From Microcaldota archaeon (lineage in GTDB: Archaea > Micrarchaeota > Micrarchaeia > Anstonellales > Bilamarchaeaceae): DNA of 43,307 nucleotides. The DNA lies in the NCBI GenBank assembly GCA_014727925.1, contig WJMN01000008.1:1-43307 (forward strand), in the 5' to 3' direction. Both the position numbers and the translations under genes were made by a program. Of this stretch, positions 1 to 11,991 are shown piece by piece; position 1 is the first letter of the stretch, and every line of letters begins with the position of its first letter. The notes below the pieces were generated by a model. That model had not been told where the DNA came from and searched no databases. It saw only the letters and a program-made list of their open reading frames with translations.

Positions 1-186
1 CGCGATAACTTTTACAACACAATAGTCGACAATAGCGAGACGTACACATACACTCCAGGCAAGGATTCACAACATCCTGAAGTCGGGAAAACATTCAATC
101 CGGACTCCTCCCTCCTGGTTGCTGTTTCTCCGGAATTCAGGGACATGGGAAAGGCCGTGAGGAACAAACTGACTGGAAAGCGGTGA
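1..186 (+). CDS. C-terminal fragment of an unidentified protein (…RDNFYNTIVDNSETYTYTPGKDSQHPEVGKTFNPDSSLLVAVSPEFRDMGKAVRNKLTGKR-stop)
   Basis: Open frame from base 1 to TGA at 184-186; truncated by the left window edge; not in the ORF track. Confidence 0.5.
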   Translation, partial: RDNFYNTIVDNSETYTYTPGKDSQHPEVGKTFNPDSSLLVAVSPEFRDMGKAVRNKLTGKR

Positions 187-261
187 TAGCACAACATCTG
201 CCTGCGCACCCCGCAGGCATAAATTTTTAATCCACCTCTTCTCTATTATTCATGTGGTTTT

Positions 262-1575
262 ATGGCAGTTTCACCGCTCGATTCGCGCTACAAAACGGAG
301 ATGACACCTGTTTTTGATGAGGAGAACAAGCTCCGCAAATGGATGGAAGTAGAGGTTGCGCTTGCAAAGGCCCATGCCCTCCTCGGCCATATTCCTGAAG
401 AAGCTCCCGGGGCCATAGAGGCAGGAATGGAAAAAGTAAAAGTTGAGCGTGCCCAGGAAATAGAAGCCGAAATCCACCATGACCTGATGGCGATGGTCCG
501 CGCACTCTCTGAGCAGAGCGGGGAATACGGAGGCTACATCCACATCGGAGCAACAAGTTATGATATTGAGGACACTGCAACTGCACTGATTTTCAGGGAG
601 GCAATTGAGGTCCTAGAAAACCGCCTCAAAACCCTGAACTCAAAACTCAAAACCCTTGCAAAAGCGCACAAGAAAACAGTGTGCATAGGAAGAACACACG
701 GCCAGCACGCCAACCCCACCACTTATGGAATGAAGTTTGCAGTTTATTACCAGGAAATAAAGAGGAACCTAAAGCGCCTAGAAGAGGCAAAGGAAACCAT
801 TTCAGTGGGGAAGATGAGCGGGGCAACCGGCACGATGGCTGCATTCGGCAGGGAAGGAATTCAGATGCAGGAGCTTGTGATGGAGGAGCTGGATTTGAAA
901 CCCGCAAAAATCTCCACCCAGGTAATCCAAAGAGACAGGCATGCGCAGGTGCTCTGCACCCTTGGAATAATCGCAGGCACCCTAGAAAAAATGGCAAAAG
1001 AAATCCGCAACCTCTCCCGGCCGGAGATGGGCGAGCTTTCCGAACCCTTCGGGAAAAAACAGGTTGGCTCCTCCACCATGCCGCACAAGCGCAACCCGCA
1101 TAAGTCCGAGAGAATCTGTTCGCTTGCAAGAGTAGTGCGGGCAAACGTGCAGACTGCGCTGGAGAATATCCCCCTAGAGCACGAGCGAGACCTCACCAAT
1201 TCTGCAAACGAGCGCTTTATTTTTCCAGAAAGCTTCATAGTTACGGATTACATGGCAAAACAGATGGCAGCAATTCTTGAAGGCCTGGAATTCTATTCCG
1301 AAAACATCCAGCGCAACCTTGAGCTCACTAAGGGCCTGGTAATGGCCGAGCGCGTAATGATGGCACTGGTGGAAAAAGGCATGAGCAGGCAGGAAGCCCA
1401 CGAAGCAGTACGCGAAGTAGCCCAAAAAGCATTTAGGGAAAAGAAGTCCCTCAGGGAAGCCCTTTCGGAAAGCGAAGCGGGAAAGCAGTTCAGCGAAAAG
1501 GAGCTAGATGGGCTTATGGACCCCTCAACCTATCTGGGAAAAGCAGAAGAAATAGTGGATTCCGCTCTCGACTAA
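262..1575 (+). CDS. purB: Adenylosuccinate lyase
   Basis: 437 aa; fumarase/aspartase superfamily signature GSSTMPHKRNP; N-terminal SPLDSRYKTEM typical of PurB. Confidence 0.95.
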   Translation: MAVSPLDSRYKTEMTPVFDEENKLRKWMEVEVALAKAHALLGHIPEEAPGAIEAGMEKVKVERAQEIEAEIHHDLMAMVRALSEQSGEYGGYIHIGATSYDIEDTATALIFREAIEVLENRLKTLNSKLKTLAKAHKKTVCIGRTHGQHANPTTYGMKFAVYYQEIKRNLKRLEEAKETISVGKMSGATGTMAAFGREGIQMQELVMEELDLKPAKISTQVIQRDRHAQVLCTLGIIAGTLEKMAKEIRNLSRPEMGELSEPFGKKQVGSSTMPHKRNPHKSERICSLARVVRANVQTALENIPLEHERDLTNSANERFIFPESFIVTDYMAKQMAAILEGLEFYSENIQRNLELTKGLVMAERVMMALVEKGMSRQEAHEAVREVAQKAFREKKSLREALSESEAGKQFSEKELDGLMDPSTYLGKAEEIVDSALD

Positions 1576-1641: not shown

Positions 1642-2457
1642 ATGGCTACCCTATCTGCCAAGCAACTGATGTATGGTTCTATCGGCCTTGCTTTCCTCGG
1701 GGCAATACTTGCCCTGAGCTCAAGCGCCAGCGGGATTCTGGGAATAATCGGAGGCCTTTTTGCAGGACTGGGGGGACTGGGCGCAGTGGTTTTCTTCAAG
1801 TATGGATATCTTGTGGTTCCCCTGATTACAAAATGGCAGAAAATAGTGATGGTCACCGATACCGGATATGAGATTCCGCCCTCCCAGGATGTAATCATAA
1901 AAAAGGTAGGAAACGAGTATTATGCATCCGCTTTTCTTTCAGTAAAGATTTTTGAGTCTGCAACCGAGAGGGGTCCGGAGCAGAATGTTGCCTACAACAA
2001 ATACTTTGAAAGGGCAATTTCCAACATGAGATATGTCGTGAAAATCTGCTATCTCCTCTATGCAGAAGATGTTGCGGAAAAGAGAAGGACAATTGAAACA
2101 AGGAAGGCAGAGTCCCAGCTGCGGCTTGCAAGGGAAAGAGACAAGGCAGACCCGGACGTACTGAAGATGGACAAGTATGAGAGGGAGATAGGGATGTGGG
2201 ACAACCAGCTCCAGCGCCTGATAAAGGGGGTGAGGCCCATGGGCGTGCTTGCCTATGCAATGACTTCTGCCACAGGGGTTTCAAAGGAGGCGGCTGTTGC
2301 CACTTTGAGGGCCCAGGTAAGGGAGCTTAAGGTAACGCTCCAGAATGCCCTCAATGTCCAGGTAGAGCAGCTTACTGCAGATGAAATGAAGAAGTGCTTC
2401 GAATGGGAGTACGCATTCCCTTCAGGGCCAAAGGAACTGGAGGAAAACATATTGTGA
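1642..2457 (+). CDS. Membrane protein: two N-terminal TM segments followed by a VirB4 N-terminal-domain-like region
   Basis: 271 aa; hydrophobic segments at about residues 10-55; C-terminal pattern …LQNALNVQVEQLTADEMKKCFEWEYAFP resembles the end of VirB4/TraC N-terminal domains; directly upstream of a VirB4-like ATPase. Confidence 0.55.
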   Translation: MATLSAKQLMYGSIGLAFLGAILALSSSASGILGIIGGLFAGLGGLGAVVFFKYGYLVVPLITKWQKIVMVTDTGYEIPPSQDVIIKKVGNEYYASAFLSVKIFESATERGPEQNVAYNKYFERAISNMRYVVKICYLLYAEDVAEKRRTIETRKAESQLRLARERDKADPDVLKMDKYEREIGMWDNQLQRLIKGVRPMGVLAYAMTSATGVSKEAAVATLRAQVRELKVTLQNALNVQVEQLTADEMKKCFEWEYAFPSGPKELEENIL

Positions 2458-2466
2458 GGGGATGAT

Positions 2467-4044
2467 GTGGGAAGGCTCTCAATAAGCAAGGTGCCCAACA
2501 ACGACATATCAAGCAGGAATATCCTTGTCCATCCCCCGGAGCCCCCGATGGAGGTGCTCTGCAAGGACCCGGCACAGGGAATTTATGTGGGCAGGACAAA
2601 GATGCTCAACGTTCCTTTTTACTGGACCTACAAAGAGGTCACCAACCCCCATCTTGCAGTGGTGGGGATAACCGGCTCAGGAAAATCCTACTTCATAAAA
2701 ACATTCCTTACCCGCGCTTCCTTCGTCTGGAACTCAAATGCCCTGATAATAGACTGGGCAGGAGAATACAAGCAATGGGTAAGGATGACCGGGGGAAAGG
2801 TTGTTTCCCTTGGAAAGGGCTCTTATCTGAACCTCCTTGACCTTGGGGGAATGAAGCCCTATGACCGCATAAAGCAGGTAATGCGCACGATAGGGATACT
2901 CACCAACATAGACCAGTACCCTGAGCAGAAGCGCCTTACTGAGCAGGCAATTGAAAAGGCCTACAAGGATAACAAGTTCAGGATGGATGAGAGGGAGCAG
3001 AGGGATGAGCTTGGAAGGCCTCTCCAGGCACCCACACTCAAGGACGTTATGACCATCCTGGAAGAAAGATCCTCCATGGGGACATACGAGTTCCCTGCAG
3101 AGCTTGAGAATGCAATATACCGGCTGAAGCAGTTTACCAAGCCGGGAGAGGACTTCTTTGCCCAGCAGAGCACAATCAGCCTTACCGAGCTTACAGAATC
3201 AGGCCTGGTTGCCCTGGACCTTTCAGGGCTCCCGGACGAGCGCTTCCGCGCCCTTGGCGCCCTTGCCATGCTCCAGTTCATAAAGGAGAGGATGAGGGCC
3301 ACAGGCTGGGCCACGGAAAAGGGGCTCCGCCTGATTGTTGTGCTAGATGAGGCCTGGAAAATCGGGAAAGATGAAAACAGCGATGTTGTGATGATAGTCA
3401 GGGAAGGAAGGAAATACAACTTCGGCCTTATTGTGGCTTCACAGAACCCCACAGACATTGCAGAGGCGATTTTCTCAAATGTGGGGACAACATTCATACT
3501 AAAAATCAAGTTTGAAAAGTTCCTGAATTATATACAGGGTACTCTCAATTTCAGCGAATACATGAGGGACGCAATCGCAAAGTTCGGAGTCGGGGAGACC
3601 GCGGTAAACATGGCGTTTTCCAGCGCAAACCCCTACCCCTCCACCTTCCTCATAGACAAGATTGAAGGGGAGGAGCCGATGAGGGAATTTTTCCTGGACC
3701 TCAGCAAGGTCCTTACAAAAGAGCAGAAGGAGGAGATGGACGTGGCAAGAAGTGTTTCATTTAAAAAAGACAGTTTGAGGAGGCGGCTCAGGGAGTTCGG
3801 GCTAAGCGAAGGCCGCATTGAGGACGTGGTGCGTCTTTTTGACCAGAAGAGCAGGCACATGGATATTGCTTCTTTTATAATCCTGCTTGAGCGCTTTGGG
3901 GTTGAAAGGTCAAATATAACTATGTTCCTTAAGGAAATAGGGATTGAGGACACTACAGTGATAAACATATTTACCCTCGCAGACAAGCGAAAGGCAGATG
4001 TGATGGACAGGGACATAACCCAGGTTATCCTAGAGGAGGGGTAG
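2467..4044 (+). CDS. VirB4/HerA-family (DUF87-like) ATPase
   Basis: 525 aa; Walker A GITGSGKS, Walker B LRLIVVLDEAWKI, ASQNPTDI motif; GTG start. Confidence 0.85.
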   Translation: MGRLSISKVPNNDISSRNILVHPPEPPMEVLCKDPAQGIYVGRTKMLNVPFYWTYKEVTNPHLAVVGITGSGKSYFIKTFLTRASFVWNSNALIIDWAGEYKQWVRMTGGKVVSLGKGSYLNLLDLGGMKPYDRIKQVMRTIGILTNIDQYPEQKRLTEQAIEKAYKDNKFRMDEREQRDELGRPLQAPTLKDVMTILEERSSMGTYEFPAELENAIYRLKQFTKPGEDFFAQQSTISLTELTESGLVALDLSGLPDERFRALGALAMLQFIKERMRATGWATEKGLRLIVVLDEAWKIGKDENSDVVMIVREGRKYNFGLIVASQNPTDIAEAIFSNVGTTFILKIKFEKFLNYIQGTLNFSEYMRDAIAKFGVGETAVNMAFSSANPYPSTFLIDKIEGEEPMREFFLDLSKVLTKEQKEEMDVARSVSFKKDSLRRRLREFGLSEGRIEDVVRLFDQKSRHMDIASFIILLERFGVERSNITMFLKEIGIEDTTVINIFTLADKRKADVMDRDITQVILEEG

Positions 4045-4045
4045 A

Positions 4046-4513
4046 ATGGCCAGAATGTGCATAATATCCAGGGAAGAAGTTCCTGAGGGAGAAGGAACCC
4101 CCATAAAAGAGGACGCAATAATCCGCACAATAAGGAGGATAAAGGGGAAATTGGGCATACTCCAGAACAACCAGCTGGTTGTTTCGGATGAGCACCTAGA
4201 AGAATACAGGAAAAAGCGGGAAAAATTTGAGAAGATGGCAGTAATCCACACCGCGGTTGCCGCAATTCTCGTGGTAATCCTCACTCTGGGCCCGCTTCTG
4301 CTGGGGGCCCCAATCAACCTGGTAAGCATTTTCTTTGCACTTGTGCTGGGAATAATGATTGCCGCACTTTCCCTGCTAAGCTACGTTCCCGGGCTTGAGG
4401 GGGAGGAAGAGAAAAAAACAAAGAGAACGCCAAAGCAGATTGCAAGGAGCCTTTCTCCTAGGAAAAAGGCAGCGCCACGCCGCCCCAAGGCGAAAAAAGC
4501 AAAGAAGAAGTGA
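4046..4513 (+). CDS. Small membrane protein, two TM segments with a Lys/Arg-rich C-terminal tail
   Basis: 155 aa; hydrophobic stretches around AVIHTAVAAILVVILTLGPLLLGAPINLVSIFFALVLGIMIAAL; basic tail RKKAAPRRPKAKKAKKK. Confidence 0.7.
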   Translation: MARMCIISREEVPEGEGTPIKEDAIIRTIRRIKGKLGILQNNQLVVSDEHLEEYRKKREKFEKMAVIHTAVAAILVVILTLGPLLLGAPINLVSIFFALVLGIMIAALSLLSYVPGLEGEEEKKTKRTPKQIARSLSPRKKAAPRRPKAKKAKKK

Positions 4514-4518
4514 GTTGA

Positions 4519-5247
4519 ATGGTTGAAGATGGAGCACCAGAACCCAAAGTAGATGGCTTCCGGATGACCGCAAAGCTTACCGGAAAGTTTTCTGATGTTG
4601 CAAAGGCCCTCAGCACAATATCTTTCCTCAAGATAGCAAAGGAGAAAGAGGGGGTGGGTGTTGCTTATGTGGAGAGCAGGAGCATAGACAAAACACCCTA
4701 CCTTTTTTCCATGATGAAGTTTAAGAAGGATGAGATAGAGGCAATCTACACAGTCCCGTCCAATGTTTCTCCAACCAAAAGAAAGCTTGATGTGCTTCGC
4801 TACCTGCTCAACATGATAACCCTAATTGAGCCCCATTACGCTATTGACAACAAGGTGGTCTACCAGCTTGTTGAGGAGACCATGAGGCAGATGGAAGATT
4901 ATACCAGCGGAGACTACAAATCCCTATACAAAGAATACGACCAGCTCAAGAGGGAGGTGGAGAACCTTCGCCGCTCTTCTATGATATACCGCAACCAGGT
5001 GAAAAGCCTTTCCAAGGAAAATTATGAGCTGAAAAACGAGAACGATGAGTACAAGGTGAGATTTGAAAAACTCAGGGGAGGGATATCCGACAGTGTCCTG
5101 AGCACAAGAATCCAGAACTGGATAATGGACCATAATGGCTCCATAAACATTGTGGAGTTTGCAAAGTACAACCGGGTTCCTGAGGCCAGGGTGGAAGACG
5201 TTCTGAACCGCCTGGTGAGGCAGGGGTATCTGGAGCAGATTCAGTGA
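4519..5247 (+). CDS. Coiled-coil protein with C-terminal winged-helix-like domain
   Basis: 242 aa; heptad-rich centre (YDQLKREVENLRRSSMIYRNQVKSLSKENYELKNENDEYK) and LSTRIQNWIMDHNGSINIVEFAKYNRVPEARVEDVLNRLVRQGYLEQI. Confidence 0.65.
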   Translation: MVEDGAPEPKVDGFRMTAKLTGKFSDVAKALSTISFLKIAKEKEGVGVAYVESRSIDKTPYLFSMMKFKKDEIEAIYTVPSNVSPTKRKLDVLRYLLNMITLIEPHYAIDNKVVYQLVEETMRQMEDYTSGDYKSLYKEYDQLKREVENLRRSSMIYRNQVKSLSKENYELKNENDEYKVRFEKLRGGISDSVLSTRIQNWIMDHNGSINIVEFAKYNRVPEARVEDVLNRLVRQGYLEQIQ

Positions 5248-5251
5248 GCAT

Positions 5252-7807
5252 ATGGTGGATATAAAGGACTTGAAGATAAAGAAGCGCACCTTCCAGTTTG
5301 ATGTAAAGAGGCGCTATTCAAACGAACTCAAATTCAAGAAGGTGGAAAAGACACCACTTGAGAAAATAAAGGAGTTCCTAGAGTCCTTTAGGAAACCAAA
5401 GGGAGAAGTGGTTCTGGAGGATAAAGAGGAGGAAAAGGAGAAAGGGGGAACTGCTCGGCTTGGGGAAAAGGAGAAAGAAGAGCCCCTGGTAAGCACAAAT
5501 CTCCTCCTGAAGGCAGGAGGAGGCACGATCCTTATTTTCCTTCTCCTGATCTCTGCATTCCTTTTCATACAGTCAGGGGTATATGCACAGGAAGTGGTTG
5601 TGAATCCCCCCGATTCCCAGGCAATCCATTCCGAAGTCATTGCTTATGACATACTTACTGCAAGCCAGGAGGAAAATCCCCGGGACCCGACACATACAGC
5701 ATTTGTGAGGATGGAGCTGCAGGGGGAAAAAACCGCAACAATTCCCATATCCCTTGAGGCCTACAACCGCGTGGTGCCCTCCTCTGTCTATGTTTTGCGC
5801 AGCCACCGCTACCAGGCAGAAACCTACCCCGAATTCCTCAATTCATTTAAGCAACGGATGTTCCACTGGGACATTCCGGTAAACGAGATAGGTATGGGTG
5901 AGCTGGCCACTCTTCCCTCACAATCCCTGGTTGTGGTGCCCAGCGGATACATACCCCAGCAGATGCTTTCAGGCAGCGGCACACGCATAACCGACCTCCT
6001 TGATAGGGGGGCAACAGTTGTGTATGTGGGCCAGCCCTTTTTCCGGATGTTCAATGAGCAGGGCGCAGTTGTTTCATCAAACCCTGCCGCACTTGACCCG
6101 ATGCGCGTTACTTTTGACGAGAGCACCCAGCTGGTTTCTACCAATAACCTGAGCATGGGCAGCCCGCTATATGCACTTGGGGGAGGTTCCATGATTTGGG
6201 GCTCAGTAAGCTCAGTTTCATATGGGGAGGGATACCTGATTGCATTCCCCCAGACGCTTGACGGCGGCTGGGCCAGCGGTGAAGAAGCAGCCGCCGATAT
6301 TTACCGCCTCATAGTGGAGATGCCCTGGATTTCCCCGGCAGGGAGCGCTTCATCAGAAATTGGGGTTTCCACGAACCTCACAGTGGCAGAGCTTTACACC
6401 AGCGTGTTTGAAGGAGACCGCAAGTATTTGCGGGTATATGGATTTGATGAAGAGAGCGGGACCGGATTCAATGAGGTAATTTATGCAAAGAAGAGCACAA
6501 AGGGGGAGATATACACAGAAGGCCACGATATTGTCCCCGGCGGGCTCGGCCCAACGGAAATGGACATAATGGCAGACCTGCGAGAAGAAGGCGGGGAGGC
6601 AAGGCTCTTTCTTGTAATTACCCATATTGGGGAAGAAGTAGACAGGACCCCGGTTGCCACCACCAAGGTAGCCCTGAATTCCCAGCCAACATTCCCTTAC
6701 GAATTTCTCCTTCCCAGCGGAAACTACGTACTCAACATAATGGATACTGAGGACAACAGGTATGCACGTTCATACATGCGGGTAGGCACGCTGGATATTG
6801 TGCAGGGCTCCCACGCTATATCCACAGACACATACAGGTTCTCATTTTACCTAGATGGGCAGCGTGTGCCGGTTTCAGGAAGCGTTTATGTGAATGGAGA
6901 CCCGTCTAATGCACGGGAGTTTGAAAATACAGAGTCAATTGAGCTTGAGGCCTCCAGAATGGTCGGGGGGCCCCTTGAGGGGAACCAGGAGCACACTTTC
7001 ACTTTTGAGCTGGGCGATTTCCAGTTTACTGAAACTGTGTATAAGCGCGCACCATCATCAATATTTGATGAGCCTCTGTTTGTGGCCGCCGGAATAATCG
7101 GGATAATTGCACTTGGGATTGGCTTCCTTTTTGCAAGGAAAACCGAAACCATGTATGGCTTGGATATCCCTGACTTCCCTCCGCAGACAACAAATAAAAT
7201 CCCCATGAAAAAGGAAACCCTCCTTAAAATCTTCACCAAGCTCAATGAAAAGTACAAATGGAAGCACACCCCCCTCACACTGAGCGAGATAAAGAGCGGC
7301 TTCCGGGGAATGCTACATGAAGGAAAGCCGATTTTCATAAGCGATTACAATCTTGAGTACCTGCTTCTCCGCCTGATAGGGATGGGAGAAGTAAAGAAGG
7401 AGATAAAGTATTATGGGCTCACATCCTGGGAAGAAGATACAGGATACAGCATGAGATACCTTGCTTTCTTCCGGAAGCTGAGGGACATCTGCATAAACAA
7501 CGCGGTTCCCTTTACCCATTTTGAAAAATCGGAGAATTATGATTCTAGGATAACAATTCTCGGCCAGAAGATTTTCGTGCATCTTTATGATGAGCCGGGA
7601 AGGGTGATACCGAATGCACTTTCCTCCCTTGGAAAAGGCCTTAACATAATTCTATTTGAAGAGGAGGCGGAAAAGAGCGAATTCTACGAATACCTTTCCA
7701 GCGGCTACCAGGGAGGAACCATCCTCAAACTTGAGATACAGGCAGGCTCGGTTCTCCTCAAGACCTTTAGGGAATTTGAAGAGATGGTCAAGGAGATGAA
7801 GGTTTAG
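5252..7807 (+). CDS. Large membrane protein: basic cytosolic N-terminus, TM, roughly 500-aa predicted ectodomain, second TM, cytosolic C-terminal domain
   Basis: 851 aa; TM-like LLLKAGGGTILIFLLLISAFLFIQSGVYA and LFVAAGIIGIIALGIGFLFA. Confidence 0.7.
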   Translation: MVDIKDLKIKKRTFQFDVKRRYSNELKFKKVEKTPLEKIKEFLESFRKPKGEVVLEDKEEEKEKGGTARLGEKEKEEPLVSTNLLLKAGGGTILIFLLLISAFLFIQSGVYAQEVVVNPPDSQAIHSEVIAYDILTASQEENPRDPTHTAFVRMELQGEKTATIPISLEAYNRVVPSSVYVLRSHRYQAETYPEFLNSFKQRMFHWDIPVNEIGMGELATLPSQSLVVVPSGYIPQQMLSGSGTRITDLLDRGATVVYVGQPFFRMFNEQGAVVSSNPAALDPMRVTFDESTQLVSTNNLSMGSPLYALGGGSMIWGSVSSVSYGEGYLIAFPQTLDGGWASGEEAAADIYRLIVEMPWISPAGSASSEIGVSTNLTVAELYTSVFEGDRKYLRVYGFDEESGTGFNEVIYAKKSTKGEIYTEGHDIVPGGLGPTEMDIMADLREEGGEARLFLVITHIGEEVDRTPVATTKVALNSQPTFPYEFLLPSGNYVLNIMDTEDNRYARSYMRVGTLDIVQGSHAISTDTYRFSFYLDGQRVPVSGSVYVNGDPSNAREFENTESIELEASRMVGGPLEGNQEHTFTFELGDFQFTETVYKRAPSSIFDEPLFVAAGIIGIIALGIGFLFARKTETMYGLDIPDFPPQTTNKIPMKKETLLKIFTKLNEKYKWKHTPLTLSEIKSGFRGMLHEGKPIFISDYNLEYLLLRLIGMGEVKKEIKYYGLTSWEEDTGYSMRYLAFFRKLRDICINNAVPFTHFEKSENYDSRITILGQKIFVHLYDEPGRVIPNALSSLGKGLNIILFEEEAEKSEFYEYLSSGYQGGTILKLEIQAGSVLLKTFREFEEMVKEMKV

Positions 7808-8960
7808 GGGCCTGTTTCCCATCGTTTTTATCCAGGATTTTGCCATAAAGCTCAACAAGCGCCTCAACACGCTTGTCCGCATCATATTCCCTGGCTATTG
7901 TCTTGCACTTCTCCCCCATTCCCTTCCCGTTTTCAAGAGCAAGCAGCAGTTTTTCCCTAAAATCAACCTCTTCTTTGAACAGGTATCCTGTTTCCCCGTC
8001 TTTTATGAAATCAGATGAGCCGGATTTCTCAGGCGCAACAACCGGGAGCCCCGCAGCCATTGCCTCAAGCGCCACAAGCCCCTGTGTGTCAAAGTATGAG
8101 GGGAATGCAAATGCATCTGCAGCACCATAATAGTCCGGAAGCTCCTTTTTGGGCACAAAGCCTGTAAATATGAAGTATTCCTCCAGGCCCCTGAGCGCCA
8201 CAAGGTTCTTGTAATACTCATCTGCAGGCCCTTTCCCCACAATTACAAACACCACGTTTGATTTCTTGTTTATGATGGACTGGGCCTCATTTATCAGCAG
8301 CTCAAGGTTCTTTTCTTTCACCACTCTCCCCACATGGAGCACGATTTTTTTCTTCCCAAGCTTGTGTTTTTTCCTTATCCACTCCCCATCTCCCTTTGAG
8401 TACGTACGGTAATTTATTCCAGCCGGCATTACAGTTATGTTTGGGATGCTGTGTGTTTCCAGGATTTTTTTGGTGAATTCGCTGGGCACAAGGACCTTGT
8501 CAAAAAACCTGTAATACCACCTTAGGTATTTCCATGAAACATCCTCAAGGAATTTCTGCATATCCTCACGGGTTGTAATGTAGTGGGTTGCGCTGGGCAC
8601 CATGGTGTGGAAAGAAGCTATGCAGGGCTTTTTCAGGGTCCTCGCACAGTCCACAGCCGCAAGGCCGGTCGTTGCTATGCCATGTGAGTGTATCAGGTCA
8701 ACGTCCATTTCCTTAAGCAGTTTCCGGGCAGAGCGGAAAGGGAACAGGGCAAGGCGGTAATCGGGGTACGGCTTGAATGAAGCCGAAGTGAAATAGTATA
8801 CTTTCTCATCCTTGTTTTCCTCTTTCTGCTTTTTCGTGCCAGGAGTGAGTATGAAAACTTCATGCCCTCTTTTCTCCAGCCCCTTCCTATAGTTGAGTAT
8901 GGCGGTTACTACCCCATCGTTGTTTGGCAGGTAGGTATCTGTAAAGTATGCTATTTTCAT
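7788..8960 (-). CDS. GT4-family glycosyltransferase
   Basis: 390 aa; DTYLPNNDGV N-terminus, HSHG, KNLELLI, and FPSYFDTQGLVALEAMAAGLPVVA signature. Confidence 0.9.
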   Translation of the reverse strand: MKIAYFTDTYLPNNDGVVTAILNYRKGLEKRGHEVFILTPGTKKQKEENKDEKVYYFTSASFKPYPDYRLALFPFRSARKLLKEMDVDLIHSHGIATTGLAAVDCARTLKKPCIASFHTMVPSATHYITTREDMQKFLEDVSWKYLRWYYRFFDKVLVPSEFTKKILETHSIPNITVMPAGINYRTYSKGDGEWIRKKHKLGKKKIVLHVGRVVKEKNLELLINEAQSIINKKSNVVFVIVGKGPADEYYKNLVALRGLEEYFIFTGFVPKKELPDYYGAADAFAFPSYFDTQGLVALEAMAAGLPVVAPEKSGSSDFIKDGETGYLFKEEVDFREKLLLALENGKGMGEKCKTIAREYDADKRVEALVELYGKILDKNDGKQAPKPSSP

Positions 8961-9814
8961 TCTTTTTCCATCCCCGGGATTTTTTCAAGGTGTTTTTTGA
9001 TTGATACTTTTGAAACTTCAGTAGGTATGGTGTCTGAAACAAATACTTCTCCGGACTCCCGCAGCTTCTCTAGGGAATTTTTGAGAAAGAACCCGTGCGA
9101 TGCAGTGCACACTACCCTTTCTGCCCCCCCTCTTTTCACATTTTCTACTGCCCTGAGCATTGTTCCTCCGGTTGAAATCATGTCATCTATTATAAGCACC
9201 GGCTTCCCGGAAACATCATTCTCCATCTTAACTTCCTTTATCTCCCGGTATGCCTCCTTTCCTTCCCGGTAATCTCCCCTCTCCTTTTTCATGCTGCTGC
9301 CTCCGAATTCCTCTACCAGGTAGTTTGCCCCTTCATCCGGGCTCATTATTTCCAGCTCCTCGCCGGCAATTTCCCTGGCTTTTTCAACCAGGTTGCGGTT
9401 TAGGGAGAGATTCATTATCTTCAGGCCCCCATACTCAAATTCACCTTCTTTCTTGATAAAATGGCAGTCAAATGTCACCAGCAGGTCCACCCCCTCCCTC
9501 TTCAGCAGGTTGCAGAGCACCTTTGCGCTTTTTATTTCTCCTTCTTTAAACACCTTGTCCTGCCGTGAGTATGGGAGGTAGGGAACAACAAGGGTTATGC
9601 TTTTTGGGCTCTGCTCCCGTATTGCCCGCAGCGCAAGCAGGGTCTGGAATATAGAGGAGTCCTGCTCAGGGTAAAGCCGGTTAAGCAGAAGCACGTCCTT
9701 TCCCCTGGCTTCCCCGGCAGAGGGGACTCTCACGTAGCTATCTCCATCGGGGAACGTCTTTATTTCCACGTTTGGCTCGTACAAGTCTGAAAAGGAGGGG
9801 CAGACAAATCTCAT
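8957..9814 (-). CDS. prs: Ribose-phosphate pyrophosphokinase (PRPP synthetase)
   Basis: 285 aa; PRPP-binding motif VLIIDDMISTGGTM, YLPYSRQDK, FPDGDSYVRV. Confidence 0.93.
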   Translation of the reverse strand: MRFVCPSFSDLYEPNVEIKTFPDGDSYVRVPSAGEARGKDVLLLNRLYPEQDSSIFQTLLALRAIREQSPKSITLVVPYLPYSRQDKVFKEGEIKSAKVLCNLLKREGVDLLVTFDCHFIKKEGEFEYGGLKIMNLSLNRNLVEKAREIAGEELEIMSPDEGANYLVEEFGGSSMKKERGDYREGKEAYREIKEVKMENDVSGKPVLIIDDMISTGGTMLRAVENVKRGGAERVVCTASHGFFLKNSLEKLRESGEVFVSDTIPTEVSKVSIKKHLEKIPGMEKE

Positions 9815-9841
9815 GGGTTAAAAAAGAAAAGAAATTGTTTT

Positions 9842-9864
9842 AAAAGCCACTACCAGTGGCTTTT
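9842..9864 (-). terminator. Perfect 10-bp hairpin (AAAAGCCACT-ACC-AGTGGCTTTT) between pyrI and prs
   Basis: Inverted repeat read directly; lies 3' of pyrI and 28 nt upstream of the prs start. Confidence 0.55.
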
Positions 9865-9869
9865 TGTGT

Positions 9870-10313
9870 TTAAACAAGCTCAGAAGCCCGAAACTTCCTT
9901 TCGCAGTACCCGCATCTGTATTCTCCATTATCTAGGGCAAACCTTGAAGGCACGTCCTGGTGATTGGAGATGCATTTCGGGTTTGGGCACTTTCCAACTC
10001 CCTCCATCTTTTCCGGAAGCTCTGCTTTTTTCTTTTTTACTACCCTGCCTTCCTGGATATGGTTGATTGTAGCATTTGGGGCAATAAGCGCAATAGCATC
10101 AGTTTTCTCTTCTGATACAAGAATCCCCTCAATTTTCACGATGTCCTTCTTATTGCTTTTGCCGCTTCCCACATTCATCACAAGCGCCACCCTGTGGGGG
10201 TAGCTCTTGTCTATTCCAAGCAGGTCCATTACGCGGATTCCCATGCCCTGCCGGATGTGGTCCACCACAGTTCCCTGCTCTATTGTGTCTACTGTAATTC
10301 CCATCAAAATCAC
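9870..10313 (-). CDS. pyrI: Aspartate carbamoyltransferase regulatory chain
   Basis: 147 aa; C-terminal zinc site CPNPKCISN…YRCGYCE; adjacent to and overlapping pyrB. Confidence 0.95.
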   Translation of the reverse strand: MILMGITVDTIEQGTVVDHIRQGMGIRVMDLLGIDKSYPHRVALVMNVGSGKSNKKDIVKIEGILVSEEKTDAIALIAPNATINHIQEGRVVKKKKAELPEKMEGVGKCPNPKCISNHQDVPSRFALDNGEYRCGYCERKFRASELV

Positions 10314-11239
10314 CCTTTTTTCTGCCGGGCAGAGCCCAGCATCTTCTTCATAATGCCCATCCTCATCGGTATTCCGTTTTTTGCCTGCTCAAAATATTTT
10401 GCATACTTGCTCTTGTCCACTTCAGGGGGGATCTCGTCAATTTTTGGGAGGGGATGCAGAATAATCATGTCCTCTTTTACTCCCTGGAGGTACTCCGGCT
10501 TGATTGTGAATTTCTTCTTTACGCTCATCGCCTCATACTTGTCCTCAAACCTTTCCTCCTGTATCCTGCACACATACACAACATCCGCATCCTTAAAATC
10601 AATTGTTTCGGTTTCTTCTACTTCCATCTCAAACTTCCTTTTTACATCTGCAATGGCATCCCGGGCCATTTCCAGCCCGCTGGGCGCGACAAGCTTCACC
10701 TTTGCCCCGAACATTCCCAGTCCATAGAGGAGCGAGCGCATTGTGCGGGCATGCTTCAGGTCCCCCACAAGGTGCACATTCAAGGCGCCGATATCCCCCT
10801 TCATCTTTTTGAGCGTATAAAGGTCCAGGAGTGTCTGGGAGGGGTGCTGGTTACCCCCGTCTCCCCCGTTTGCAATGGGCGCTTCTGCAAACTCAGATGC
10901 AACCCGTGCAGAGCCTTCCAATGGATGCCTTATCACAATGATATCTGCATAGCCATCCACGGTTCTTATAGTATCCTCAAAGCTTTCTCCCTTCTTCAGA
11001 GAAGAGCTTGAGCCAACAAAATCCACAATCTGCAGCCCCAGGCGCTCGGCCGCGCTCTGGAAGGAAAGCTTGGTCCTTGTGGAGGGCTCAAAAAACATTG
11101 TCGCAACAATCCCATCTAGCTTTTCCACATTTCCTGCTTCAAGCTGCCTGTCCATCTCTTCTGCCCTTGCAAAATAGTCCTCTACATCCTCTTTGCTGAG
11201 GTCTCTAAATGATATTAAATCCATAATCCCACCTTTCAC
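10310..11239 (-). CDS. pyrB: Aspartate carbamoyltransferase catalytic chain
   Basis: 309 aa; FFEPSTRTKLSF and HPSQTLLDLYT motifs. Confidence 0.97.
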   Translation of the reverse strand: MKGGIMDLISFRDLSKEDVEDYFARAEEMDRQLEAGNVEKLDGIVATMFFEPSTRTKLSFQSAAERLGLQIVDFVGSSSSLKKGESFEDTIRTVDGYADIIVIRHPLEGSARVASEFAEAPIANGGDGGNQHPSQTLLDLYTLKKMKGDIGALNVHLVGDLKHARTMRSLLYGLGMFGAKVKLVAPSGLEMARDAIADVKRKFEMEVEETETIDFKDADVVYVCRIQEERFEDKYEAMSVKKKFTIKPEYLQGVKEDMIILHPLPKIDEIPPEVDKSKYAKYFEQAKNGIPMRMGIMKKMLGSARQKKG

Positions 11240-11418
11240 GGTTTAGGCAGAAACAGGAATATAAACCCCCCTCTCCCGTGCATGGATAAGGTATTTATTT
11301 TATTGCGTTCCTTATGTATTTTTCTTCTAATCCGAAGCGCAGGGGGACATCGCCTTCAGTTTGAAGGTATCCCGGATTCCCCCCAAAGTGTATAGTATTC
11401 GGGTAAGGTAGATGGCCT

Positions 11419-11991
11419 ATGAAAATAGTATTCGAGGGACAGGACGGCTGCGGAAAGGATACCCAGCTTGCCCTCCTCAAAGAAAAGATTGAGTTTACCC
11501 ATTTTAAATATCCAACTCCTGCGTTTCCCTCCATACGCGAATACCTGGAAAAAAAGCGTGAGATTTTTCCCAAATCCCTTTTCCTGCTTTTTCTTGCAGA
11601 CATTGCAAATGAGCAGGAAAAGCTCGCCGATTCCCCAGGTGCCAGCATAATAGACAGGTATGTGTTTTCCACAATTGCATATGACAGGCATTTTACTTAT
11701 GAGAAGGCCAAGGAGCTGGTATCGGGCATGGGATTCCTGCGCCCGGACAAGGTAATTCTTCTGGACCTGCCCCCGCAGGTTGCACACGAGCGCAAGATGA
11801 GGCAGAAAAGCCAGGAAGGAATTTCCCCCGACCGCTATGACGAGGACACTGAATACCTCACCCACGTGAGGGAGCGATTCCTCATGCTAAATGAAGATTC
11901 CTTTCTCTGCCCTGAGTGGGTTGTGCTGGATGCAACAATGCCCCCAGAAGAGCTGCACAGGGAGATATTAGGGCTCCTGGGCCAAGCGTGA
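11419..11991 (+). CDS. tmk: Thymidylate kinase-like protein
   Basis: 190 aa; P-loop FEGQDGCGKDTQ, DRYVFSTIAYD. Confidence 0.85.
   Translation: MKIVFEGQDGCGKDTQLALLKEKIEFTHFKYPTPAFPSIREYLEKKREIFPKSLFLLFLADIANEQEKLADSPGASIIDRYVFSTIAYDRHFTYEKAKELVSGMGFLRPDKVILLDLPPQVAHERKMRQKSQEGISPDRYDEDTEYLTHVRERFLMLNEDSFLCPEWVVLDATMPPEELHREILGLLGQA

Follow-up and report, generated by a model that had tools for sequence, protein, structure and literature searches.

The window, a stretch of 43,307 nucleotides (nt) from a Microcaldota archaeon (contig WJMN01000008.1 of assembly GCA_014727925.1), contains a cluster of five genes, here named A to E, whose products are likely to form the inner-membrane core of a translocator derived from a type IV secretion system (T4SS). 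This translocator would be relaxase-less, ancestral in the Micrarchaeota and domesticated onto the chromosome; our confidence covers the class of machine only and not its substrate. Micrarchaeota are tiny, host-dependent archaea, and the window is a single contig of a 1.0-Mb genome that is 88% complete. An initial annotation, made from the sequence of the window alone, had described five co-directional open reading frames (ORFs) with gaps of 1 to 9 nt around a VirB4-class ATPase. The arrangement was confirmed, as the genes lie head to tail between positions 1642 and 7807 with gaps of 9, 1, 5 and 4 nt, in that order (Table 1), and so was the class of the ATPase.

Protein B carries the GITGSGKS and VVLDEAW motifs, as annotated, and matches DUF87 in Pfam (1.3e-19). 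Against NCBIfam models it scored 83 bits with CedD, 81 with CedB, 66 with VirB4 CD1110 and 44-48 with HerA, all far below the equivalog cut-offs. The B protein of a second, minimal version of the system (see below) reached 98 bits with CedB; at 65-98 bits, B does not attain the curated CedB cut-off of 700 bits, and by score the system is no member of Ced or Ted. The Walker A, Walker B and REGRKY motifs were invariant among 20 sequences. B has a VirB4/CedB-type ATPase domain without an N-terminal domain of its own, and its C-terminal domain is helical; in some relatives a second copy of this helical domain is encoded by a small separate gene. A HerA-NurA repair helicase was considered as an identity for B and ruled out, since a distinct ATPase of the same genome scores 190 bits with HerA. 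Because CedD, CedB and VirB4 outscore HerA and the HerA of this genome is another protein, B is, judged by its profile scores, a VirB4/CedB-type motor and not a repair helicase of the plain HerA-NurA clade.

Protein A, initially called a two-transmembrane (2-TM) protein, does begin with a two-helix hairpin, but that description was incomplete, as a soluble domain of ~200 aa resembling the VirB4 N-terminal domain follows; a P-loop is absent. Profile searches with A against Pfam and PDB returned no family and chance-type matches only. An AlphaFold2 model based on 77 orthologues (predicted local distance difference test, pLDDT, 83.2) was compared to the PDB with Foldseek, and the matches ranked 1-4 were all TrwK/VirB4 of R388 (probability 1.00, E 5.6e-3 to 2e-2), the other matches listed being unrelated (probability <=0.69). 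The alignment with TrwK/VirB4 covers 164 columns (TMq 0.39). Foldseek gives no target coordinates; we infer that the part common to both must be the N-terminal domain, since A has no P-loop. On the strength of this model, A is proposed to be a VirB4 N-terminal-type domain with a membrane hairpin of its own, and A and B together are best read as the two halves of a split VirB4, with the N-domain anchored in the membrane in the former and the ATPase in the latter. The two components by which a VirB4 is recognised, an N-terminal domain and a RecA-like C-terminal ATPase, would then both be present, as two proteins, the former by structural match. The gene for A is frequently duplicated in relatives (A-A'). 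Of the Sulfolobales proteins CedB and CedD, each is similar to a part of the N-domain of VirB4 (PMC11868833). When A was compared by HHalign to a standalone N-terminal-domain-like protein encoded next to a VirB4-like ATPase in Pontibacillus, a weak match was obtained, with a P value of 3.5e-4, the best of 60 comparisons, but a probability of only 37.5%. On plasmids of Bacillota, a small TM protein is encoded directly 5' of a VirB4-like DUF87 ATPase (L211:4458-5282, L215:4297-5292 and L216:4479-5249), so that VirB4 may have been split separately in Firmicutes.

The five genes form a conserved unit, far above chance. The set of GTDB loci comprised the best 80 of 339 confirmed relatives, nearly all of them Micrarchaeota, and the A-B-C-D-E series was complete and in order in 64 of these 80, in agreement with the idea that the genes belong together. 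The other 16 included 14 partial loci, mostly cut at a contig edge, one without a called A (L135) and one with an inverted E (L140). Among 146 genomes of the phylum, B was found in 131 and E in 132, G133 being the lone discordant genome (Fisher p 1e-18, a value that ignores shared ancestry). Orthologues of B were 83-89% identical within the genus and mostly 62-69% across the rest of the order. A and the two families V and P described below were likewise missing from eleven genomes that have neither B nor E, save for one marginal P match; these genomes belong to families f16, f18, f20 and part of f21, and several are mutually related, so that independent losses are fewer than genomes. Two further genomes carry a single A, V and P side by side, with no V arrays and a weak E match. 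The families without the whole system constitute a natural experiment on its role in symbiosis. A second locus with paralogues of A, B and D, without C or E, was detected in genomes that also carry A-E; this minimal system, in the order P-V-A-B-D, is present in the genome of the window and in many relatives and looks like a more Ced-like version.

Clustering of the loci by gene context yielded the two additional families, P and V. P proteins are 80-180 aa long with a TM hairpin and showed weak matches to TrbC/VirB2 (PF04956, E 0.0026) and T4SS_pilin (0.018), the top PDB match being TrwL of R388 (E 0.07); in several families their genes are found 5' of A or of V. V proteins are 280-1140 aa long, mostly with 5-8 TM segments. 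Their genes immediately precede A; eight loci, from three families, have a V array in this place, and most minimal A-B-D loci a single V gene. Both P and V were present in all 15 genomes first searched, including that of the window. From these matches and positions, P would be a VirB2/CedA1-like pilin, and V is a candidate VirB6/CedA-like channel on account of its place, topology and co-occurrence. The idea of a self-contained five-gene machine was rejected once these families emerged from the gene context; the compact machine envisaged initially was thus not borne out, as pilin-like and putative VirB6-like parts are encoded in the same genomes, and beside A-E in many relatives. V arrays are missing where the minimal system alone remains, and the joint pattern of loss indicates that the unlinked V arrays belong with the A-E system.

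Eight loci have arrays of six V genes, and in four others the array has five members. The array positions form clades in a tree built from 96 V proteins, and the nearest neighbour occupied the same position in 254 of 336 cases for the eight six-gene arrays, compared to a mean of 56 and a maximum of 81 in 500 shuffles. Agreement was 100% among five arrays of the type present in the genome of the window, and was limited to two or three positions for a Micrarchaeales-type array (L197). By their grouping in the tree, array positions 1-6 are orthologous across genomes; the moderate support of many deep forks, the long branches and the disagreement of L197 leave the ancestral number of V paralogues unsettled. 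Very large extra domains occur in several V proteins of one of the two array types, as they do in the RvhB6 proteins of Rickettsia (L194 and L195: V3 of 1143 and 1126 aa, V4 of 733 and 933 aa; L195: V5 of 876 aa). P genes of the window's genome adjoin genes for four small one-TM proteins resembling type IV pilin-like proteins (L187:4381-6560, G000:C37).

The initial annotation counted two outer-subunit candidates of no known family. E indeed matches none; for C, a place among the outer subunits is improbable. C has hydrophobic segments at residues 70-88 and 92-110, which form a TM hairpin, and a basic tail; its charged N- and C-terminal segments suggest that both ends are cytosolic, and C is probably a cytosol-facing membrane subunit. 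Its relatives carry a CxxC...CxxC zinc ribbon N-terminal to the hairpin, the cysteines being partly lost in the genus of the window (19 orthologues aligned), and C is syntenic in every complete locus. The coiled-coil/winged-helix character of D was supported by the alignment of 19 sequences, in which an N-terminal domain is followed by a long coiled coil and a C-terminal winged helix with an invariant winged helix-turn-helix core. Profile searches against PDB and Pfam found only coiled coils and winged helix-turn-helix domains for D, other matches being at chance level. D, also encoded in the minimal A-B-D loci, is a putative cytosolic adaptor. The large ectodomain predicted for E was recovered between two TM segments in an AlphaFold2 model based on 58 orthologues (pLDDT 84.9; Table 1). 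Foldseek retrieved generic tandem beta-sandwich folds only, including complement C3 and phage tail proteins (TM about 0.1), and no Pfam, NCBIfam or PDB family was found for E by profile search, in which its C-terminal domain was also included. E is a component without known relative and is proposed to be a surface or gate subunit specific to the main system.

Several parts of classical T4SS, and ComEC of DNA uptake systems, were looked for. The MOB relaxase PF03432, the only relaxase family searched, was absent from all 18 genomes examined. The VirD4/TraG coupling protein family PF02534 gave two matches only in these genomes, one in G034, where it is part of a 3271-aa ORF, and one below the cut-off in the system-less G085; no other VirD4 was seen. 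ComEC (PF03772) was found in none of the 18 genomes compared to 10 of 14 control genomes. VirB5 and VirB7-11 were not seen in the clusters. The absence of the relaxase, coupling protein and ComEC matches what is known of domesticated systems such as Ced and Ted, which have no relaxase (PMC9905601).

Some observations weigh against a T4SS-derived translocator or its proposed parts. Sequence comparison does not connect A to classical VirB4 N-terminal domains, and the structural match of A is modest (TMq 0.39, E 5.6e-3). For P, the pilin matches fall below the curated cut-offs; for V, searches by sequence found no match to VirB6, TrbL, CedA, TrwI, CD1112 or any PDB entry. The A-E genes of the window's order are not adjacent to the V arrays. 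The genome of the window also encodes pyrB, pyrI and prs, so that it is not obviously dependent on scavenged nucleotides.

In the T4SS-derived translocator that we favour, B would assemble into a VirB4-like, presumably hexameric ATPase ring, tied to the membrane by the hairpin of A, which perhaps stands in for VirB3. Five or six polytopic V paralogues would build a VirB6/CedA-like channel, and the P proteins a VirB2/CedA1-like filament, either external or lining the channel. C would be a small cytosol-facing membrane subunit and D an adaptor, or handle the substrate through its winged helix. The ectodomain of E, anchored by two TM segments at the surface, would touch a partner cell or gate the pore, while its cytosolic winged-helix part would couple back to the motor; the winged helices of D and E would thereby handle a substrate or a signal. 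A more specific arrangement, in which six ancient, position-conserved VirB6-like paralogues compose one hetero-oligomeric ring beneath a hexamer of split VirB4, with the phylum-specific surface protein E as the cap, and act as a host-interaction conduit of the Micrarchaeota, appears rather unlikely.

As to the substrate, we lean tentatively, at close to even confidence, towards uptake of nucleic acid upon contact between cells. Such uptake is preferred to protein delivery because B is nearest to DNA importers, no coupling protein accompanies the system and two subunits carry winged helices, which is suggestive and no proof. Alternatively, the same class of machine may deliver effectors, proteins or other macromolecules, into the host while the cells are attached, the cargo being chosen by D and E, a possibility that we regard as somewhat doubtful. 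It would suit a near-universal system in a host-dependent phylum and the adhesin-like, immunoglobulin (Ig)-rich ectodomain of E; its best parallels in symbionts are the rvh system of Rickettsia (PMC2653234) and the T4SS of Patescibacteria (PMC12102498), and such a role was assigned to the giant Ig-plus-VirB4 proteins of nanohaloarchaea (PMC10266531). However, no conserved effector gene accompanies the cluster, and among system-bearing genomes PF02534 occurs only within the giant ORF mentioned above. DNA exchange between Micrarchaeota cells for recombinational repair, equivalent to Ced and Ted, is improbable: CedD and CedB are the closest models to B, relaxase and coupling protein are absent in both cases and the minimal P-V-A-B-D locus has putative counterparts of pilin, channel and motor, but E, C and six channel paralogues are not needed by Ced or Ted, obligate symbionts encounter hosts more than kin, and no link to damage-response genes was seen.

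Two further readings dispense with transfer between cells. A T4SS-derived motor for surface assembly or envelope maintenance, secreting surface-layer or adhesin proteins with no transfer to or from a partner, would agree with the near-universal inheritance, the stable gene order and the large ectodomain protein E. Its clean and complete loss in several Micrarchaeota families implies that the system is not essential for the envelope, and the putative VirB2-like pilins suggest a contact organelle; we rate this reading as about as improbable as DNA exchange between Micrarchaeota cells. That a HerA/NurA-type repair or defence module merely adjoins membrane genes has a negligible likelihood and is refuted as the principal explanation. 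B does belong to the HerA/FtsK superfamily and has weak HerA profile matches, but the genome has its own HerA, the neighbours of B are VirB4 N-terminal-domain-like, TM and ectodomain proteins, and pilin-like and polytopic genes co-occur with it.

The T4SS-derived translocator was compared to known systems. Like Ced of Sulfolobales and Ted of Thermoproteales, it is an archaeal, chromosomal, relaxase-less T4SS derivative (PMC9905601, PMC11868833) with a motor closest to CedD and CedB, genes for pilin-like and polytopic proteins next to that of the motor and the function of the VirB4 N-terminal domain shared out among proteins (PMC11868833). It differs in having this domain on a membrane protein of its own that is no ATPase, in the up to six channel-like paralogues in arrays and in the additional conserved proteins C, D and E. 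CedA is not matched by V in sequence, V and P being counterparts of CedA and of the CedA1/TedC pilin by position only, and the reported hosts of Ced and Ted are Thermoproteota and not DPANN archaea. With bacterial conjugative T4SS (R388 Trw of the MPF_T type, MPF_FATA of Bacillota) it shares the VirB4 fold in A, the VirB4-type ATPase and a putative VirB2-like pilin, and with Bacillota plasmids the small standalone protein, TM or N-terminal-domain-like, just 5' of a VirB4-like ATPase. Here, however, no PF03432 relaxase was found and no PF02534 coupling protein apart from the matches given above, V arrays contrast with the single VirB6 there, and no equivalent of E is known from those systems.

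The rvh T4SS of Rickettsiales also belongs to a host-dependent lineage, with scattered T4SS genes and five VirB6 paralogues (virB6a-e) group-wide that carry large extra domains (PMC2653234). The present system is archaeal, with a split VirB4, up to six paralogues and two arrays per genome, no VirB8-11 or VirD4 seen and no homology to rvh at the level of the gene cluster. Patescibacteria are an ultrasmall epibiotic lineage in which a VirB4-based system is likewise near-universal, but theirs is a bacterial MPF_FATA system with full-length VirB4, VirB3 and coupling protein, and genes of the A-E type were not reported (PMC12102498). The SPEARE/VirB4 giant proteins of Nanohaloarchaea tie Ig-rich surface domains to VirB4-type ATPases in DPANN archaea (PMC10266531), as a single giant fusion instead of the separate subunits found here. 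Some Micrarchaeota have, in addition to the A-E system, giant ORFs with a VirB4/HerA-type ATPase domain that resemble them (PMC10266531), as detected in G034 (C6 near 9217, 3271 aa) and G039 (C15 near 88617, 4596 aa), with E-like matches within about 10 kb of both.

In the window, genes of nucleotide metabolism lie on both sides of A-E, with purB on the 5' side and prs, pyrI, pyrB and thymidylate kinase genes (8957-11991) on the 3' side, after a convergent family-4 glycosyltransferase gene that follows E; this neighbourhood is largely common to the genus. A scan of the window for promoters and terminators gave chance-level results only.

Table 1. Positions of the five genes, of the segments of protein E and of associated loci
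Feature	Position	Strand	Remarks
Gene A	1642-2457	+	271 aa
Gene B	2467-4044	+	525 aa, GTG start
Gene C	4046-4513	+	155 aa
Gene D	4519-5247	+	242 aa
Gene E	5252-7807	+	851 aa
Protein E, cytosolic N-terminus			model; precedes TM 82-109
Protein E, TM segments	residues 82-109 and 608-627		model
Protein E, ectodomain	residues about 120-600		model; beta-sandwich, Rossmann-like and Ig-like domains
Protein E, cytosolic winged helix	residues 654-731		model
Protein E, cytosolic alpha/beta domain	residues 734-850		model
purB	262-1575		5' of the A-E cluster
Minimal system, genome of the window	L064 (G000:C42:15000-33000)		A 7397-8176, B 8176-9615, D 9584-10315
V genes, genome of the window	C32:44.7-51.4 kb, C33, C28, C42		six genes in C32
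P genes, genome of the window	C37, C4, C42
System-less genomes			G067, G085, G088, G094, G095, G102, G117, G126, G128, G138, G154

The initial annotation proposed an undescribed envelope export or import machine. Its VirB4-class motor and co-conserved gene set were retained, but not its unrecognisable type, as the system is probably a divergent T4SS and not a new class. No description of it in Micrarchaeota was found in the open-access literature, to which the search was confined, subscription papers and preprints lying outside it, and the text of the Mancarchaeum genome paper names type IV pili, Sec and Tat, not the A-E system (PMC5498576). An apparently undescribed relative of T4SS is carried by nearly all Micrarchaeota and may move DNA or proteins between these cells and their hosts, in either direction. 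By what route material passes between DPANN archaea and their hosts is an open question, for which a near-universal, clearly bounded T4SS-type machine with natural losses offers a concrete candidate, testable in Micrarchaeota co-cultures. It parallels the T4SS of Patescibacteria and of Rickettsia, so that conduits of the T4SS type would be a solution met repeatedly among very small cells that depend on a host. As T4SS architecture, a split VirB4 would be unusual, and so would about six channel paralogues in arrays.

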